DNA from: a virus
DNA: 28,643 bases
Strand: one strand, 5' to 3'
IMG/VR virus record: IMGVR_UViG_3300022928_000095
Coordinates: 1 to 28,643 of that record
Below are positions 5,116-26,757 of the stretch, piece by piece. The translations under genes and the position numbers were made by a program. Under the pieces are notes generated by a model. It ran no database searches and had not been told where the DNA came from. It was given only the letters and a program-made list of their open reading frames with translations. Every line of letters begins with the position of its first letter. Within the stretch, counting starts at the first letter, position 1.

Positions 5116-6003
5116 TTATTTTCCTATTGCGTTACCATAAATGTGTACGTGAACTCTACTTGTATAATTATATCCACGTTGTATAGCCTCGTCGGCAATG
5201 GTGGCTTCAGTTTGTACTAAGCCTTCAAATGTGCCGCCTACTCCCATAATCCATACAGGAAAGTCGCAACCTGCTTCTCTAAACAGTTTAACATTGTCTT
5301 CTACTTCTTGCCAACTTGCTTCTGAGCCATTAACAACAAACTTCAACTGTCCTACTGGACTTACTTCAGCATATCTACCAATTACTTCAGGCTGTATTGC
5401 TTTCTTAGGCTTCTCACCAGCAGTACTCCATAACTTAGGTGATAAACTCCAATACCATTCTCTGCCAGTCCAACCTGTGTAATTACGATGTACCCAACCA
5501 GCAAACTCATCTGTAATAGGCTTTGTGCCATTTGTTTCCACAGTAACATTCATTGGCATATTGTCTCTGCGTTTGAACTCTTCTATAACCTGCATCATAC
5601 CAGGCTGTGTGTTTTTAAGCATTGGCTCGCCGCCTGTAAACACCATATGCACAGGTTGTTGTGTAACTGGGTGTACAAACTTAGAGTGCGGTAGAAGTGC
5701 TGTAAGTTCGTCTACTGCCTCTTCTACCGTCTTATCTGTTATTAAATGCTTATACTTTTTACTCCAAGTATAACTGCTATCACAACCTTTTTCAAACACA
5801 GGTAAATCAAACACATTTGTTATATCTGATATATCAATTGTTTCATATGGTAGTTCATATGTGCTAGGGTCTGTTGGGTCTTTTTGTCCAAAGCCATTGC
5901 ATTGTAAGTTACATAGGAAAAATCTCATCCACAGACTAGGTATGCCTACATACTTGCCTTCGCCCTGTGCAGAATAAAATGTTTCGCTATATTTTAATGT
6001 CAT
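5116..6003 (-). CDS. queE: 7-carboxy-7-deazaguanine synthase, radical SAM (QueE)
   Basis: A 295-residue radical SAM enzyme that would convert 6-carboxy-tetrahydropterin to 7-carboxy-7-deazaguanine (CDG). The N-terminus YSETFYSAQGEGKYVG and the motif VFTGGEPML are typical of QueE, as is the later VETNGT. The iron-sulfur ligands appear split: C31 and C35 in FLCNLQCNGFG, then C74 in GCDSSYTW, the counterpart of the 'WCDTxYTW' that normally follows two residues after the second cysteine. The insertion between them is 38 residues. The start overlaps the FolE stop as TAATG. Together with FolE, the QueD-like protein and DpdA it forms a 7-deazaguanine pathway; QueC is absent from the window. Confidence 0.88.
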   Translation of the reverse strand: MTLKYSETFYSAQGEGKYVGIPSLWMRFFLCNLQCNGFGQKDPTDPSTYELPYETIDISDITNVFDLPVFEKGCDSSYTWSKKYKHLITDKTVEEAVDELTALLPHSKFVHPVTQQPVHMVFTGGEPMLKNTQPGMMQVIEEFKRRDNMPMNVTVETNGTKPITDEFAGWVHRNYTGWTGREWYWSLSPKLWSTAGEKPKKAIQPEVIGRYAEVSPVGQLKFVVNGSEASWQEVEDNVKLFREAGCDFPVWIMGVGGTFEGLVQTEATIADEAIQRGYNYTSRVHVHIYGNAIGK

Positions 6004-6692
6004 TATCTTCCGCAGGCGTATTGTGTTTGCAGTTTAATATTGTCCATAAATTCTTTTTGCACTTTTGCTTCTTCTTTAAATGCACCTTCTAATACAGTTG
6101 TTTGTGTTAAACTGCTATGTGCTAACACACCTCTGTTTTCTACACAACCGTGTGTTGCTTGTATGTACACACCTAAGTTTTTACTGCCAGTTGCTTTCAT
6201 TATTTCTCTAGAAATATCATTGGCAAGTTCTTCTTGTAATGTACCTCGTCTTGCACACCATTGTGCAATTCTTGTATATTTGCTTAAACCAATTAGTGTT
6301 TCTCCAGCAATAATACCAATGTATGCTACACCCTTTACAGGCTGATGGTGATGAGAACACATACTTTGTATTTCACTTCTCACAACCAACATACCTTTGT
6401 AACCTTCTTCTATGTCATTAGGAAATGCTGTGGCATCTGGCATATTGTTATATCTGCCCCACATAAGTTCATTAATATACATTTTAGCAAGACGTTTTGC
6501 AGTACCTTGACTGTTAGGGTCATTGTGTCTATCAATAATAAGTGTATCTAGTACACCTTCGAAATGAGGAACTAGTTCTTCAATAAGTGCTAGGTCATCG
6601 CCTTCATCCATAAATTGTGCAACATTATCACTTGCCCAATACTTTGCTCCGGCTTCTTTAATTCTTTGTGTAATTTTATCACTCACCTTCAT
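6003..6692 (-). CDS. folE: GTP cyclohydrolase I (FolE type)
   Basis: A 229-residue GTP cyclohydrolase I, converting GTP to dihydroneopterin triphosphate, the first step of both folate and 7-deazaguanine synthesis. The zinc ligands are visible as C112 in MCSHHHQP and C183 in HGCVENRG. H114/H115 and H181 match the catalytic histidines, and YTRIAQWCARRGTLQEEL is the family core. The length is close to that of E. coli FolE (222 aa). The start ATG at 6692 follows AAGGA. It is directly coupled to queE (TAATG), so its role here is most likely 7-deazaguanine supply for DNA modification rather than folate synthesis; that is inference from context. Confidence 0.93.
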   Translation of the reverse strand: MKVSDKITQRIKEAGAKYWASDNVAQFMDEGDDLALIEELVPHFEGVLDTLIIDRHNDPNSQGTAKRLAKMYINELMWGRYNNMPDATAFPNDIEEGYKGMLVVRSEIQSMCSHHHQPVKGVAYIGIIAGETLIGLSKYTRIAQWCARRGTLQEELANDISREIMKATGSKNLGVYIQATHGCVENRGVLAHSSLTQTTVLEGAFKEEAKVQKEFMDNIKLQTQYACGR

Positions 6693-6882: not shown

Positions 6883-7051
6883 TGTCTTCCCTCAAAATAC
6901 CGTTTTCCCAATTCTCACACACATCATTTGCATAATGTATGCTTTTATCACGAACATCAACTATACCAAACGGTTCGTAATTTTTAAACAAGTGTACTAC
7001 AAATCCATCTGGGTTGTCAACCACTTCTGCCTTTTTAATTATATTATTCAT
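6848..7051 (-). CDS. Hypothetical protein (67 aa)
   Basis: I choose the ATG at 7051 because it overlaps the phosphoribosyltransferase stop as ATGA and has GAGGA about 10 nt upstream; a TTG three codons earlier is less likely. The product (MNNIIKKAEVVDN..., HLFKNYEPFGIVDVRDKSIHYA) seems to be a small mixed alpha/beta protein without cysteine pairs beyond one Cys. No family is recognised. Its tight coupling to the phosphoribosyltransferase is the only clue to its role. Confidence 0.6.
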   Translation of the reverse strand: MNNIIKKAEVVDNPDGFVVHLFKNYEPFGIVDVRDKSIHYANDVCENWENGILREDNEYIKKSQQSS

Positions 7052-7521
7052 ACCCACCAATCCTCATATGGAAATACTATCCAATTTTCTTCATCTGGTA
7101 AAACATTAACTGCTCTAAAATTTACAGAATCAAAATTACTGGATTCTTTAGCAAATATTGTAGCATACTTTACATCTCCGTGCAACATTATTTGAGGTAT
7201 ATTTTCAACTTCATCGTGTATACCTTGAAGTGTTGCTCCTGAATCATTAATGTCATCAAATATTAAAATATTTTTGCCAATATAATGAGTTAAAATATGT
7301 TTTAATGTTTCTGCATCTTTGATGTCTCCATCTCTAGTTTGCCATCTGAAACCTTCAAACGGAACATCATAGTAATGACTAAGCATAACTCCGCCAGTAT
7401 ATCCACCTCTACCAGGCCCTAATATTACATCGGGTCTGTAACCTTCTTTTGCCATTTCTCTTGTGATAGTAGCCATATAAGAATTCCACTTTTTCCAAGA
7501 GACATATATTTTATCGCTCAT
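7048..7521 (-). CDS. Type I phosphoribosyltransferase
   Basis: A 157-residue PRTase of the type I fold. The PRPP-binding signature is ILIFDDINDSGATL at residues 85-98. An upstream pyrophosphate-loop-like stretch GPGRGGYTGG lies at 35-44, close in style to xanthine/hypoxanthine PRTases (gpt-like). Such enzymes join a base to PRPP to give a nucleotide. In this neighbourhood (folE, queE, queD, dpdA) a purine or deazapurine base is a reasonable substrate, but the base-specificity hood cannot be read from sequence. Starts at ATG 7521, overlapping the previous gene as ATGA. The fold is firm; the substrate is open. Confidence 0.85.
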   Translation of the reverse strand: MSDKIYVSWKKWNSYMATITREMAKEGYRPDVILGPGRGGYTGGVMLSHYYDVPFEGFRWQTRDGDIKDAETLKHILTHYIGKNILIFDDINDSGATLQGIHDEVENIPQIMLHGDVKYATIFAKESSNFDSVNFRAVNVLPDEENWIVFPYEDWWV

Positions 7522-14431: not shown

Positions 14432-15320
14432 TAAATTCCTCTAATTGTTTGTGTATCCATAAGTCAATTTGTTGATGCCATTCATATGGATCATCTGGTG
14501 AAAACTCTAGCATATTTCCGTATGCTTCGTTTGGACATAATCCAAAGGGCCATCTAAGACTAGAACCATCTGCAAAATTAAGATTTATAGACTGGTCATC
14601 TATTCCTTCTTTCCAACTTGCATCTATTGTGATAGGTATATTTTTTAAACTGTAAATATCCACAGCCTTATCGCAGACGTCGTATACACCATCTTCTTTG
14701 TATACTCCATATGCAGTACCACTTATGTTATCTAAGTTCCATTTTTGTACTTTCCAACTAGATACTCGTTTAAACTCTGCAGGATCTTCTTGAAATAAAT
14801 GCAACATAAAACAATACAAGTGTGGGAACAAGTCGTGTGCTACGCCTCCCCAAGCATATTCACGGTTTGTACTCCAATTACCTGGATTAGGTATTCTGTC
14901 TTTATTAATCCAGTTTATAGTAACATCTGTAACATCATACTGCCCCACAAACTCATCTAATATTCCATACGTTTCTCTATACAAGTTATTTTTAACTAGC
15001 ATAATTTTGCTGTTAGGAAATCTGTCTATGGCATCTTGCCAATGTTGGGCACTAGGCAAACCAGGCTTTTCAACAAATATATTTGTAACACCTGCTTCGC
15101 CTAATTGATTTAATAATTCTAAATGTGTGTAATTAGGAGTGCAAATTACAGCCAATTTAAAATCATTATTTGATATTGCATCATCTAAGTCCTCATAATC
15201 AGGATTAGTAAGAACATTGTGCTTGTCAACAGTTACAACTTCATACCCAACTTTTTTCAGTTGTGGTAAGTATACGTTATAACCTATACCGCCAAGTCCT
15301 ACTAATACTGCTTTAGGCAT
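14415..15320 (-). CDS. Gfo/Idh/MocA-family oxidoreductase
   Basis: A 301-residue NAD(P)-dependent oxidoreductase. The N-terminal Rossmann motif GLGGIG is at residues 8-13, the conserved VICTPNYTH at 58-66, and the family hallmark EKPG at 84-87. The second half has the WNLDNISGTAYGVY and DASWKEG beta-sheet region expected for the family. Members oxidise or reduce sugars, often nucleotide sugars (3-keto intermediates), or inositols. It overlaps the DpdA-like gene by 8 nt and the MDR dehydrogenase by 17 nt. With GalE and the glycosyltransferase it suggests synthesis of an unusual sugar. Exact substrate unknown. Confidence 0.85.
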   Translation of the reverse strand: MPKAVLVGLGGIGYNVYLPQLKKVGYEVVTVDKHNVLTNPDYEDLDDAISNNDFKLAVICTPNYTHLELLNQLGEAGVTNIFVEKPGLPSAQHWQDAIDRFPNSKIMLVKNNLYRETYGILDEFVGQYDVTDVTINWINKDRIPNPGNWSTNREYAWGGVAHDLFPHLYCFMLHLFQEDPAEFKRVSSWKVQKWNLDNISGTAYGVYKEDGVYDVCDKAVDIYSLKNIPITIDASWKEGIDDQSINLNFADGSSLRWPFGLCPNEAYGNMLEFSPDDPYEWHQQIDLWIHKQLEEFNEKEK

Positions 15321-16830
15321 TTTTTAATTCTGCCTCCAAATTTGCTAACACTTCATCATTCTCATCAAATGAGTTATCATCTGCTTCAGTAACTTCCTCT
15401 TCGAACAAACTTTGGAATAATTTGTTATTACCATCTTTATGAGGATTATTGTTTAGTGCTTCTAAGAATAATGTTGCTTCGTCGAGTAGTCCGTGTGGGT
15501 CTTCACTAGCAAAAAGTTCTTGTACGAAAGTATTAAAGTATAGAATGTTTCTAGGAACCCATTGACTAAACTCTTTACTTTTATCATTTCTTTTAACTCT
15601 TTCCCAATTTCTCCAATCTGGCTGATACTCTTGCATTTCAATTAATGCTAATTGATTTGCTCTCTGAACTGCTCTGATGTGCATATAAACATTGTGTATC
15701 ATTAAAATACCGTATGTAAAACTATCCCAACTTGTTTTACCTTCTTTACCAATTTTGTTTAACATACCAGGCTTGTACCAGTTTACATCTTTAACTTTTG
15801 TTCTAAGACCAATTGGACTTTCAAAAGGAAATGGTAAATCTCCAATATTTTCACTATTAAGTTTGTTATCAAAACATTTGTCCATTAAGTAACTTTGTCT
15901 GTCTGCACTTAATACAGTTTGTGAGTAAACTAAACCATTTGCACTACTGATAAACGGACTTGCACTATCAAAACTAATAGTAATATTAGGATTAATCTTT
16001 CTAAGTTCTCTTTGAATCACAGTAAACATTACTGCCCAATCCAACTTACTTGTACCAAGATAATGTATCCAATCTTTACCTTCAATTTTACCTTCATCTC
16101 TCATCACAATAAGACGTTTGAGACACATCTTCATATCTCTCATATGGTTACCACCCATTGCCCACCCTTCAAACGGATAGTCTTTTACTGCGTCATACCA
16201 TATACTAGCATCTTCCCAATGTGTGCCTTGCAACACATTTAAGAATTTTGTTTTGCCTTGTCTGTGTTGTACAAAGAAATCATTGTTGTGTAATGTACAT
16301 TTTAAACATTCATCAAAATCTTTAAGTCCTGTACGTTCCCTTAGTTCAGGCTTACTTGCCCAACTAGGTACATCAAGTGTCATACTCCAATCTGCTGTAT
16401 GCTCTAACCAGTTTAAAATTTTGTGTCTAACTTTGTCAGCATCACCTTTGTATCCAGGATCGCCAGGCTTTTCAAAAAAGTTCTCCCAGTCGAATTTAAT
16501 AACACCTTTACCAATTTGGAAACCGCCTGAGTCTCCTAGTATCATAGTGTTTTCTCTATCACGTTTTTGAATAATGTATTCTAATTCGTTACTTCTGTCT
16601 ATGTCTAAGTAGGCGTGTCCTGCCGAGTATAAACCCATATTATACTTAAAGTAACCTTTGTCATAGTCTAAAAAGTTTAGACCTTCAAAGCCGTGTTCGA
16701 AGCCTTCTGGAATCCTACCTTCAGGGATATAGCCTTCTATATGTTTACATCTGCCAAGCAGTTCTGTATAGAAACCACTAATAGCAGGCAAATAGACTGC
16801 TGAATCACCTATGTGTTTGGATAAATCCAT
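15313..16830 (-). CDS. dpdA: DpdA-like DNA transglycosylase (TGT fold), 7-deazaguanine insertion
   Basis: A 505-residue member of the tRNA-guanine transglycosylase superfamily. The key TGT positions can be matched in order: D100 in LGDSGGFQIG, D153 in TLDVPSW, Q201/G202 in NVLQGTHW, G226/G227 in WAMGGNH, and the likely nucleophile D288 in ISFDSASP. No CxCxxC zinc site is seen in the C-terminal part, which is longer than in tRNA TGT and ends acidic. In phages, DpdA homologues replace guanine in DNA with a 7-deazaguanine and protect against restriction. FolE, QueD-like and QueE genes nearby favour this over a tRNA role. Start ATG follows AAGGAG and is one base from the sliding-clamp stop. Confidence 0.83.
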   Translation of the reverse strand: MDLSKHIGDSAVYLPAISGFYTELLGRCKHIEGYIPEGRIPEGFEHGFEGLNFLDYDKGYFKYNMGLYSAGHAYLDIDRSNELEYIIQKRDRENTMILGDSGGFQIGKGVIKFDWENFFEKPGDPGYKGDADKVRHKILNWLEHTADWSMTLDVPSWASKPELRERTGLKDFDECLKCTLHNNDFFVQHRQGKTKFLNVLQGTHWEDASIWYDAVKDYPFEGWAMGGNHMRDMKMCLKRLIVMRDEGKIEGKDWIHYLGTSKLDWAVMFTVIQRELRKINPNITISFDSASPFISSANGLVYSQTVLSADRQSYLMDKCFDNKLNSENIGDLPFPFESPIGLRTKVKDVNWYKPGMLNKIGKEGKTSWDSFTYGILMIHNVYMHIRAVQRANQLALIEMQEYQPDWRNWERVKRNDKSKEFSQWVPRNILYFNTFVQELFASEDPHGLLDEATLFLEALNNNPHKDGNNKLFQSLFEEEVTEADDNSFDENDEVLANLEAELKNA

Positions 16831-24185: not shown

Positions 24186-24193
24186 TATAAATA
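24186..24193 (+). promoter_or_regulatory. Exact T4-type late octamer TATAAATA, plus strand
   Basis: TATAAATA matches the T4 late promoter exactly and points towards the secreted-protein gene at 24301, leaving a leader of about 100 nt. It is directly upstream of the phased repeats at 24198-24241. A chance match is possible in such AT-rich DNA. Confidence 0.45.
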
Positions 24194-24241: not shown

Positions 24242-24300
24242 CCAAAGGGATAAAGTAATTGTTAAAATGTTTCAATATGTTCATCAAACAGGAGAATAAA

Positions 24301-24603
24301 ATGGCGAAGTCCTTAGGAATAGTAGCCGGATTGCTCATACTTTTTTCAAGTGGAACAGTTCTGGCTGACAATCATATCAACAAATCTGAAATAGACAAAG
24401 TTGAATTTACAAAAACACAAATATTCTTTAGAATGAAAGATGAGTCTATATACAAGGGAGACCTTATTAGACCACAAAGTTGTCCCATTAAACCAAAAGG
24501 GGTAAAGTACGGTTTTGACGATAAAATACACAATAGTTTTGTTGTGTATCACAATTCCGGATTTCAAACCTGTAAGTTTAAAAACGTGGAGAGACTGGTA
24601 TGA
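24301..24603 (+). CDS. Secreted small protein with signal peptide (100 aa), plus-strand
   Basis: The ATG at 24301 follows CAGGAGAAT and gives a classic Sec signal: MAK, hydrophobic core LGIVAGLLILFSSG, and a VLA cleavage site before DNHIN. An in-frame ATG 42 bp earlier would bury the signal behind 14 extra residues and is rejected. The mature part of about 76 residues has two cysteines (in QSCPI and QTCKF), probably a disulfide, and is predicted mostly beta. It is one of only two plus-strand genes here, placed behind phased PhoB-like repeats. No family recognised. A periplasmic host-modifying or nutrient-related role is inference. Confidence 0.8.
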   Translation: MAKSLGIVAGLLILFSSGTVLADNHINKSEIDKVEFTKTQIFFRMKDESIYKGDLIRPQSCPIKPKGVKYGFDDKIHNSFVVYHNSGFQTCKFKNVERLV

Positions 24604-24693: not shown

Positions 24694-24721
24694 AAAAAGG
24701 GAGCATCGATGCTCCCTTTTT
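24694..24721. terminator. Bidirectional intrinsic terminator
   Basis: A fully palindromic 28-bp element: AAAAA, GGGAGCATCGATGCTCCC, TTTTT. On both strands a GC-rich stem is followed by five U residues. It separates the plus-strand genes (24301-24680) from the convergent minus-strand peptide gene (24726-24875). Confidence 0.92.
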
Positions 24722-24725
24722 CATC

Positions 24726-24875
24726 TTAAGGATAGAAAGGATTATCTGTTATATATGCAGGTAACTCGCTTTTCTTACTTTCTCTAATACTGTTTTTCAC
24801 ATTATTAGTTAAGTGTTTTTCCTTAAGAGATTTTTTGACTGCTCTTATAAAGAGCCTTGATTGATATGTTGTCAT
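24726..24875 (-). CDS. Small basic peptide (49 aa) downstream of tandem glutamine-riboswitch-like RNAs
   Basis: ATG at 24875-24873 with AGGAGG five bases upstream, a near-ideal ribosome site; stop TAA at 24728-24726, five bases before the bidirectional terminator. The product, from MTTYQSRLFIRAVKK to AYITDNPFYP, has about ten Lys/Arg against four Asp/Glu and one amphipathic helix. Two RNA elements with the glutamine-riboswitch core lie in its leader, and that RNA class is known for controlling short ORFs in cyanobacteria and their phages. In cyanobacteria some of those encode glutamine-synthetase inactivating factors, also small and basic. Whether this peptide is one is untested; I see no clear sequence identity. 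Confidence 0.75.
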   Translation of the reverse strand: MTTYQSRLFIRAVKKSLKEKHLTNNVKNSIRESKKSELPAYITDNPFYP

Positions 24876-24897
24876 AACATCCTCCTAATTAAAGTTA

Positions 24898-24948
24898 GAT
24901 GCGTTCCTTCAGTTTTCACCTACTTCCGTCTCTTGCGAGATGAACGAA
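24898..24948 (-). ncRNA. Glutamine-riboswitch-like aptamer 2 (gene-proximal)
   Basis: In the minus-strand RNA: P1 CGUUC (24946-24942) pairs with GAACG near the 3' end. A hairpin UCUC-GCAA-GAGA follows, then the conserved ACGGAAGUAG, a small GU-GAAA-AC hairpin, and GAAGGAACGCAUC. This order is the core of the glnA / Downstream-peptide RNAs, which bind L-glutamine. Eleven bases separate it from the AGGAGG ribosome site. Confidence 0.82.
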
Positions 24949-25012
24949 GATGCGTTCCTTCGTCTACTTGACTACTTCCGTTCACTGCTACATTTAGAGT
25001 GAATGAACGATG
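24949..25012 (-). ncRNA. Glutamine-riboswitch-like aptamer 1 (promoter-proximal)
   Basis: Same architecture as aptamer 2: AUCGUUCA, a hairpin UUCACU/AGUGAA with a larger loop, the conserved ACGGAAGUAG, a short GUC/GAC hairpin, then GAAGGAACGCAUCU. The two copies share the core sequences exactly but have different hairpin stems and loops with pairing kept, as expected for functional RNA. It begins about 22 nt after the late octamer TATAAATA. Confidence 0.82.
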
Positions 25013-25033
25013 TAACATTTCTGTTACATATAA

Positions 25034-25041
25034 TATTTATA
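25034..25041 (-). promoter_or_regulatory. Exact T4-type late promoter TATAAATA for the riboswitch transcript
   Basis: Minus-strand TATAAATA between the terminator at 25052-25077 and aptamer 1. A start a few bases downstream would give a leader of about 150 nt holding both aptamers and the ribosome site. Confidence 0.7.
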
Positions 25042-25051
25042 CATTATGCTC

Positions 25052-25077
25052 AAAAAGAAAGGGCCTAAAAAGGCCCC
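25052..25077 (-). terminator. Intrinsic terminator after the 549-aa structural gene
   Basis: In the minus-strand RNA a 6-bp stem GGGCCU/AGGCCC with a UUUU loop is followed by UUUCUUUUU. It lies about 30 bp after the stop of the 549-aa gene and before the late octamer at 25034, so it insulates the riboswitch transcript. Confidence 0.85.
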
Positions 25078-25107
25078 TTCATATTGTTATTGTCTAACTA
25101 TCAAATA

Positions 25108-26757
25108 TTATACAAACTTGTATTCTACTTGTGCGTTCACAACTCCACCTGTTGGTGTTGCTGATGTTGAACCGTCTGCTTGAACAAATGCAACTTGAAT
25201 TGCCGCATTCTTAGTTAAAGCATCTGCATAGTCTATATCGATTACATAAGTACCAACTGCTACATCATTTTCTGTAGCCGCCGCTAATGTGTTACCTGAA
25301 CCTGCGTTATCTTTAACAAGCATACCTGCAACTGAGCCACCACTTACTTCTGTTGAAACATTAAGTATAACTCTACTTGCATAGTAAGTTCTTCCTGATA
25401 CGTTAGGTACTGTACCAATATTAAAAGTAGCATCACTGCTGTTTGCTGTAAAACTTGCTCTTAATAATAACCCATCACCAGCATTATTGGCAACGTAATC
25501 TACGACTGCCGCTGAAGTTGGGATTGTGGTATCATTGTCGTTATTTGCAATACCGTCTGCTTCGTCAACAAACTTAGTTACTGCAATACTTTCACCACTG
25601 TCAGTTAATGTACCGAAAGATACAATTCCTGAAGCAGTTACGTTTACTGCACCTGTTAATGAACCTGAACTAAGACTTGCTGTACCGTCTGTTAATGTTG
25701 TTGAACTAACACTTGTTAAACCTGAGATAGAACTATCTAAGTTTAAAGTTACTTGGTCACCACTTACTGCTGAAGTAATGTTTGTACCACCTGCAACTGT
25801 TAAAGTGTCACCACCCTCAATTGTGCTAGTTGAAGAACCATCACTTAATGTGAAACTGGTTTGAATAGCAACATTACTTGCTGATGTTATTCTACCTTGA
25901 GCATCTACTGTAAATGATGGAATGTTAGTTGCATCACCATAGTCACCTGCTGTTACGGCAGTATCGTCTAGGTTTAATGTTACAGCACTTGCGCCGGAGG
26001 CTGATGTTATACCAGTTCCACCTGCGATAGTTAATGTACCACTATCTAAGTCTAAAGTTCTACCGGTACCATCGTCACCTGTAAATTGTAAGTCATCGTC
26101 TCTGTCTAAGCCATCGACGTATGCTTTTAAGTTTGTATTCGCAGTATCAACGTATGCCTTTACAGATTGCTGTGAAGGTAATTTGTTTGCGGCGTTATCC
26201 GCAAATGTATCGTCGTCTACGAAAGTCATTGTTAAAGTACCATCATTAAATGATGAACCTTTTACTTCTGCCGCTTCAAAGTCAGCGACTGTTAATGTTA
26301 ATGCGCCGGAACTAGAACCTGTGAAGGATCCTGTTGCCGCTACGACTTTATCTTCTGATTCGTCCCATCCAATAAACACGTTATTGCTGTCACCACGTTC
26401 GATTACTAAACCTACGTCGTTTGCTGGCGTGCCAGTTGTGCCCGTTGCTAATTCTAGCAATGAGTCTGCAATAGTTGTGTTAGTTGATGAAACGGTAGTT
26501 GTACTACCATTGACTGTCAGGTCACCTGTGATTGTCGCATCACCTGAAATGCTAATTGCACTTGCTGTGATATCATCTGATAAAAGTGTGCCTTGGACGT
26601 CTACGTTAGCCGCTCTAACTGCCGCTAATGTTGATCCGTCTGATTCGTAGAATTCAAATCTAGTGTTACCACTTGACCATTTCGTTCTACCACCACTTTT
26701 ACCTAATTGTACGTCATCACCGATTCCCTTTAATCCAAAATTCTTGACATCGGCCAT
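25108..26757 (-). CDS. Repetitive virion structural protein, tail-fibre-like (549 aa)
   Basis: A 549-residue Ser/Thr/Gly-rich protein starting MADVKNFGLKGIGDDVQLGK after TTGGAGAAA. The N-terminal third carries the shared module DATITGDLTVNGSTTTVSST, then TIADSLLELATG and 'LVIERGDSNNVFIGWDE', the same order as in the 432-aa protein. A KAYVD coiled-coil-like spacer follows. Fibre repeats come next, with LTIAGGTGITSASG and LTVAGGTNITSAVSG each followed by a strand VTLNLD, and the phage-fibre phrase FTVDAQGRITSAS. The C-terminal 130 residues look like a globular beta domain, possibly a tip or assembly domain. It ends before a strong terminator. Late virion protein; exact location in the particle is not known. 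Confidence 0.82.
   Translation of the reverse strand: MADVKNFGLKGIGDDVQLGKSGGRTKWSSGNTRFEFYESDGSTLAAVRAANVDVQGTLLSDDITASAISISGDATITGDLTVNGSTTTVSSTNTTIADSLLELATGTTGTPANDVGLVIERGDSNNVFIGWDESEDKVVAATGSFTGSSSGALTLTVADFEAAEVKGSSFNDGTLTMTFVDDDTFADNAANKLPSQQSVKAYVDTANTNLKAYVDGLDRDDDLQFTGDDGTGRTLDLDSGTLTIAGGTGITSASGASAVTLNLDDTAVTAGDYGDATNIPSFTVDAQGRITSASNVAIQTSFTLSDGSSTSTIEGGDTLTVAGGTNITSAVSGDQVTLNLDSSISGLTSVSSTTLTDGTASLSSGSLTGAVNVTASGIVSFGTLTDSGESIAVTKFVDEADGIANNDNDTTIPTSAAVVDYVANNAGDGLLLRASFTANSSDATFNIGTVPNVSGRTYYASRVILNVSTEVSGGSVAGMLVKDNAGSGNTLAAATENDVAVGTYVIDIDYADALTKNAAIQVAFVQADGSTSATPTGGVVNAQVEYKFV

Follow-up and report, generated by a model that had tools for sequence, protein, structure and literature searches.

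The window, by which we mean the whole analysed stretch of 28,643 nucleotides, carries on its minus strand (25041–24726) a cassette that runs from a T4-type late promoter through two aptamers to a 49-aa basic ORF. On its 5′ side lies an intrinsic terminator at the end of a fiber-like gene (25108–26757), found by terminator scan as a 10-pair stem with a T run (25057–25080, minus strand). The promoter sequence, TATAAATA, is matched exactly at 25034–25041 (minus strand), and the interval between it and aptamer 1 holds a hairpin, GUAAC-AGAAAU-GUUAC (25012–25027, minus strand), read from the sequence and its relatives, many of which keep the hairpin with a changed loop. Aptamer copies 1 and 2 occupy 24949–25011 and 24898–24948, followed by a proposed expression platform (24878–24901), the Shine–Dalgarno sequence (SD) AGGAGG (24886–24881) and the ORF (24726–24875), all on the minus strand; the ORF product, MTTYQSRLFIRAVKKSLKEKHLTNNVKNSIRESKKSELPAYITDNPFYP, has a pI of 10.0. 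A palindrome, AAAAAGGGAGCATCGATGCTCCCTTTTT (24694–24721, not assigned to a strand), was called by eye from the sequence and has no entry in the terminator scan output; it is probably a bidirectional terminator, with the cassette on one side and a convergent ORF of the plus strand on the other. This neighbor encodes a small protein with a signal-peptide-like start (24259–24603, plus strand), shares the palindrome with the cassette and has a second exact TATAAATA on its 5′ side (24186–24193, plus strand). The first-pass annotation had proposed an exact late promoter, a small ORF with AGGAGG and terminators on both sides, and all of these were recovered. In the AT-rich window TATAAATA was found twice against 4.4 occurrences expected, so the match has no significance by itself, and the late-promoter call rests instead on the family: for 43 of 47 distinct type A (window-family) peptides an ATAAATA is found no more than 40 nt 5′ of the aptamer, compared with about 1% expected.

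Both aptamers match the Rfam covariance model RF01739 well above its gathering score of 35 bits, copy 1 with 59.6 bits (E = 5.6e-11) and copy 2 with 63.6 bits (E = 4.4e-12), and each contains the P1 stem (CGUUC/GAACG), P2, the loop-E GGAAGUA, P3 and the three-way junction of this family. The same search returned no match in the window to RF01704 (Downstream-peptide, glutamine-II), and RF01739 was the only family listed. The earlier proposal of two adjacent copies of a glnA/Downstream-peptide aptamer was therefore right about the copies and about glnA, and its Downstream-peptide part is rejected. Judged by sequence, the RNA belongs to the glutamine-I (glnA, type I) riboswitches, and it would be expected to bind glutamine. 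The two copies differ in P2 (UUCACU..AGUGAA versus UCUC..GAGA) and in P3 (GUC..GAC versus GGU..ACU) with pairing kept in both. In a set of 134 distinct aptamers of related phages, positions 1–5 of P2 and 1–3 of P3 are paired in 88–100%, with several pair types and, P3 position 1 excepted, clearly more often than with shuffled partners, which agrees with the earlier remark that stems and loops diverge while pairing persists. The core is strictly kept in both copies while P2 and P3 vary compensatorily, and the placement is that of a predicted 5′ UTR, reaching from the late promoter to the SD with its co-varying hairpin. Tandem copies have been reported for glnA RNAs (PMC2864571).

The type A family was assembled from the protein side: 39 viral contigs were found with the window peptide alone and one more by profile search, giving 40 loci. 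All 40 have one or more aptamer 3′ ends immediately upstream, and two aptamers are present in 35; the five single-aptamer loci include one (L005) in which the contig end cuts into the aptamer. The covariance model RF01739 finds the aptamer in 49 of 50 family or related records, the exception being this same truncated contig. The ORF, on whose conservation the first-pass annotation had made its reading depend, is conserved across the 40 loci and under purifying selection (median dN/dS 0.22, 41 pairs). Type A peptides share an MTKYQ start, a basic middle and an invariant C-terminal P-x-Y-I-x-x-N-P-x-Y-P, and a sister group has a C-terminal NPWY. AlphaFold gave the window peptide a confident N-terminal helix only (residues 3–34, pTM 0.41), which is too simple for a fold search. 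Searches of Pfam, PHROGs and NCBIfam, and of the PDB by profile, returned no match to the window peptide, no credible match was found among solved structures, and isolate phages yielded no relative. A scan of genome contigs for cellular homologues gave one weak match, to residues 27–46 in a Desulfosporosinus MAG, which we judged to be due to chance. Most likely, the protein would consist of a basic N-terminal helix and a conserved YITDNPFYP tail, and would bind a host target.

The cassette is a unit of ~380 bp present in unrelated neighborhoods. Between L033 and L034, similarity is confined to positions −217 to +165, counted from the start codon (94.8%), and nothing else aligns in 8 kb; likewise, for L025/L033 (93.5%) and L020/L025 (86%) the cassette alone is aligned between the 8-kb neighborhoods. 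Four orthologues of the fiber-like gene (L249, L250, L267, and L278) have the cassette immediately behind them, as in the window. Most orthologues lack it, and in many of these a nucleotidase-like gene comes directly next. Two records without a cassette at the fiber site (L261 and L270) have one elsewhere (L033 and L035). With its own promoter and terminators, a patchy presence at orthologous sites and one unit in unrelated contexts, the cassette is moron-like. It is a real, selected and mobile glutamine-riboswitch unit, presumptively glutamine-binding, which has moved between unrelated neighborhoods.

The DNA polymerase of the window is closest to those of Sinorhizobium phage Phosso and Agrobacterium phage Atu_ph07; for the capsid of a related contig, the nearest relatives are in Pelagibacter and Methylophilales phages. 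None of the 17 type A contigs examined, which reach 110 kb, contains psbA; the gene was found only in one contig encoding a DUF4278 peptide. A cyanophage host is thus not supported for type A; since polymerase and capsid are nearest to non-cyanophages and psbA is missing, the hosts are probably heterotrophic marine bacteria and not cyanobacteria. The window also encodes FolE, a QueE-like radical SAM protein, a phosphoribosyltransferase and a 505-aa protein (5116–6692, 7048–7521, and 15313–16830, all minus strand); the last resembles, by eye, a tRNA-guanine transglycosylase/DpdA, and together they are possibly a 7-deazaguanine DNA modification set.

Directly after P1, the tail of aptamer 2, CAUC (24901–24898), can pair with GAUG (24881–24878), which adjoins the SD on its 3′ side. 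Among phages the two partners change together (CAUC/GAUG, CAAUC/GAUUG, CACU/AGUG, CACC/GGUG, CAUU/AAUG), and such double changes are seen in unrelated peptide types. The mean longest Watson–Crick helix between tail and SD flank was 3.61 compared with 2.78 after permutation (75 distinct combinations); none of 2000 permutations reached the observed value (permuted maximum 3.07), a result that is not a strict probability because related sequences share ancestry. Folding of 41 tandem leaders gave the SD-sequestering pairing a predicted probability of 0.95 on average. This covariation implies a translational ON switch, whose coupling to the aptamer we infer. Since P1 shares no bases with the SD hairpin and the two could be present together, the coupling would depend on one tertiary pair. 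The type I structure shows glutamine in contact with G59:C1 and, terminating the P1 helix, a long-range pair that corresponds to C19:G41 in type II (PMC6698751). By these stated equivalences, the long-range pair would be 23:60, with C60 as the first base of the tail. Given G23 as the partner of this base, glutamine binding should remove the closing pair of the SD hairpin, and an ON switch is predicted from this loss; cyanobacterial riboswitches of types I and II are both reported to be of the ON kind (PMC6316151).

Under the proposed mechanism, the tail of aptamer 2 would pair beside the SD and hide it when glutamine is absent. When glutamine is bound, C60 would be kept in the aptamer through its long-range pair with G23, and the SD hairpin, deprived of its closing pair, would allow translation to begin. 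Two aptamers could make the response steeper, or both might have to be filled, and the small basic protein would be produced late in infection, at high cellular glutamine. Secondary-structure energies do not favor P1 in either copy and are therefore no guide to the switching balance. The tail of copy 1 is variable among loci. A hairpin of GAACG/CGUUC over the 6–9 nt linker, which would break both P1 stems, had an average predicted probability of 0.14; we set it aside as speculation.

The wider class was surveyed by scanning viral contigs with a pattern for the aptamer core that placed no condition on the downstream sequence. With all loci gathered, an SD–ATG ORF lies within 60 nt 3′ of 153 of the 158 distinct aptamers among the matches listed, compared with 4.6% at random positions; this fraction is biased upwards because the 158 include loci collected with an ORF pattern, and the unconditioned sample, again among the matches listed, follows the same trend. 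All 149 distinct complete ORFs among the matches listed are no longer than 65 aa (48% for random SD–ATG ORFs). The peptides behind the aptamer form at least six sequence types, each with a median pI of about 10, and include DUF4278 proteins; tandem aptamers precede DUF4278-like peptides in six phage loci, of which the one tested reached 36.9 bits (cutoff 25.3). In one contig with psbA at 30120–30992 (L143) an aptamer precedes a DUF4278-type peptide, MSKVVYRGVEYD..., and the SD hairpin differs (CUUUAC/GUAAAG), which suggests a cyanophage branch of the aptamer–peptide arrangement. Types E (L149, L192, and L327) and A (P0001, the window peptide) share [ST]D[DN]P near the C-terminus and are otherwise dissimilar; the motif may be a faint sign of a common partner.

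Among isolates, cyanophage P-TIM68 encodes a DUF4278 peptide under the aptamer, Mosig has the aptamer upstream of a 51-aa basic protein of type E (Mosig_00116, ending ...TDDPRMQGI), and HTVC008M has no aptamer. The aptamer of Melnitz has been published as controlling the tmRNA, as part of the ssrA region (PMC9004378). The tmRNA gene carries it at its 3′ end, and next comes a basic ORF of 32 aa (type B, starting MTLYQQ), which has an SD but no annotation; the statement on tmRNA control should be re-examined for this reason. At this locus (L061:2570–3153; MZ577097.1, about 45984–46564) the ORF, MTLYQQWCYLKAQKEYRRRQKILMYFRIRLKG, is overlapped by an annotated 33-aa CDS on the opposite strand. We advance it tentatively, as a proposition just short of an even chance, that marine T4-like phages, those of heterotrophs included, have in common a large class of glutamine-gated effectors that spreads horizontally, in which six or more unrelated kinds of tiny basic protein stand under one RNA switch and act late on host nitrogen metabolism or another function read through glutamine.

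For the window itself, we consider it quite likely that the cassette (terminator, T4-type late promoter, two glutamine-I aptamers, ORF, terminator) is a self-contained mobile late unit, that its protein is made late at high glutamine through an SD-hairpin ON switch, and that the tail of this protein binds a host target, for which a nitrogen-assimilation protein is our best single guess. A link to glutamine synthetase (GS) is possible as a guess by analogy. The more specific reading, that the peptide is the phage counterpart of the cyanobacterial GS inactivating factors or another DUF4278-type regulator and lowers host GS when glutamine is high, appears unlikely to us, even though the same aptamer class controls IF17, whose N-terminus is the DUF4278 domain, and DUF4278 proteins in the majority of cyanobacterial genomes (PMC6316151). 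The six tandem loci with DUF4278-like peptides (36.9 bits in the one tested) speak for it as well, as do the small size and pI of about 10 common to all these proteins and an internal YRG(V/I), as in DUF4278, in four relatives of the window peptide (L055, L095, L035, and L017). These four, members of the YITDNPFYP family, are possible bridges between the two peptide types. However, no homology of the window peptide to DUF4278 or to another family could be detected: in the profile comparison with GS inactivating factors that the first-pass annotation had suggested, DUF4278 (PF14105) matched neither the window peptide nor 28 family members, only a type C peptide and that of P-TIM68, and no homology to known GS inactivating factors was found. 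A PDB comparison of IF7 found nothing and is not counted as evidence. The carriers, moreover, lack psbA and have proteobacterial phages as their nearest relatives, and diverse peptide types occur under the aptamer; we know of no control of proteobacterial GS by peptides of the inactivating-factor type.

Short ORFs behind leaders are often leader peptides, and with the Melnitz aptamer annotated within the ssrA region (PMC9004378) one might take the ORF for a leader peptide or by-product, the regulated item being the transcript or a downstream gene. We reject this reading as exceedingly improbable: a terminator follows the ORF immediately, the neighboring gene is convergent, the peptide is under selection (dN/dS 0.22) with an invariant C-terminus, and in Melnitz the aptamer sits at the end of the tmRNA gene with an ORF and SD of its own behind it. 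The mobility of the cassette and the variable tail of copy 1 would also suit aptamers that are non-switching relics carried along with a mobile late promoter, the peptide then being a plain late protein, but such relics would hardly keep both cores strictly with compensatory P2 and P3, score above the RF01739 cutoff in 49 of 50 records, or persist before six unrelated peptide types, and we hold this to be very improbable.

The RNA class is already known; the literature searched contains no description of phages employing it as a common late gate for small basic proteins, and a Riboswitch Scanner survey reported no riboswitch in pelagi- or cyanomyophages (PMC7029224). Sensing of a host metabolite by a phage riboswitch has hardly been described, and similar glutamine-gated tiny proteins would be present in many other marine phages, almost unnoticed so far. 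If this is true, many marine phages read the glutamine level during infection, the switch offers an address label by which dozens of so far unannotated effector proteins of phages could be located, and phage handling of host nitrogen status becomes directly testable.

Among the closest known systems is the glutamine-I riboswitch of cyanobacteria, as in the gifB leader of Synechocystis, which resembles the cassette in aptamer sequence, three-way junction and a small basic regulator downstream, and is reported as ON, the direction predicted here; the cassette, by contrast, is phage-borne and mobile, follows a T4 late promoter, has nearly always tandem aptamers within its family and encodes an unrelated peptide. 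Downstream-peptide RNA (glutamine-II, RF01704) likewise controls short ORFs, in marine picocyanobacteria, and has the same ligand pocket, but its architecture is a pseudoknot and the window aptamers do not match its model. DUF4278/IF17 proteins and the P-TIM68 peptide are also small and under glutamine aptamers, with the YRG motif common to four family relatives, whereas the window peptide has no DUF4278 match. Methylophilales phage Melnitz (PMC9004378), a T4-like phage of a heterotroph, has the same aptamer class next to its 32-aa basic ORF and differs in its single aptamer, its type B peptide, the missing annotation of the ORF and the published role in tmRNA control. Pelagibacter phage Mosig combines the same aptamer class with a 51-aa basic protein and differs by its type E peptide. 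Phage morons, finally, share with the cassette their own promoter and terminator, a position between late genes and a patchy distribution; the cassette is set apart from them by its occurrence in T4-like phages and by its place under a metabolite riboswitch.
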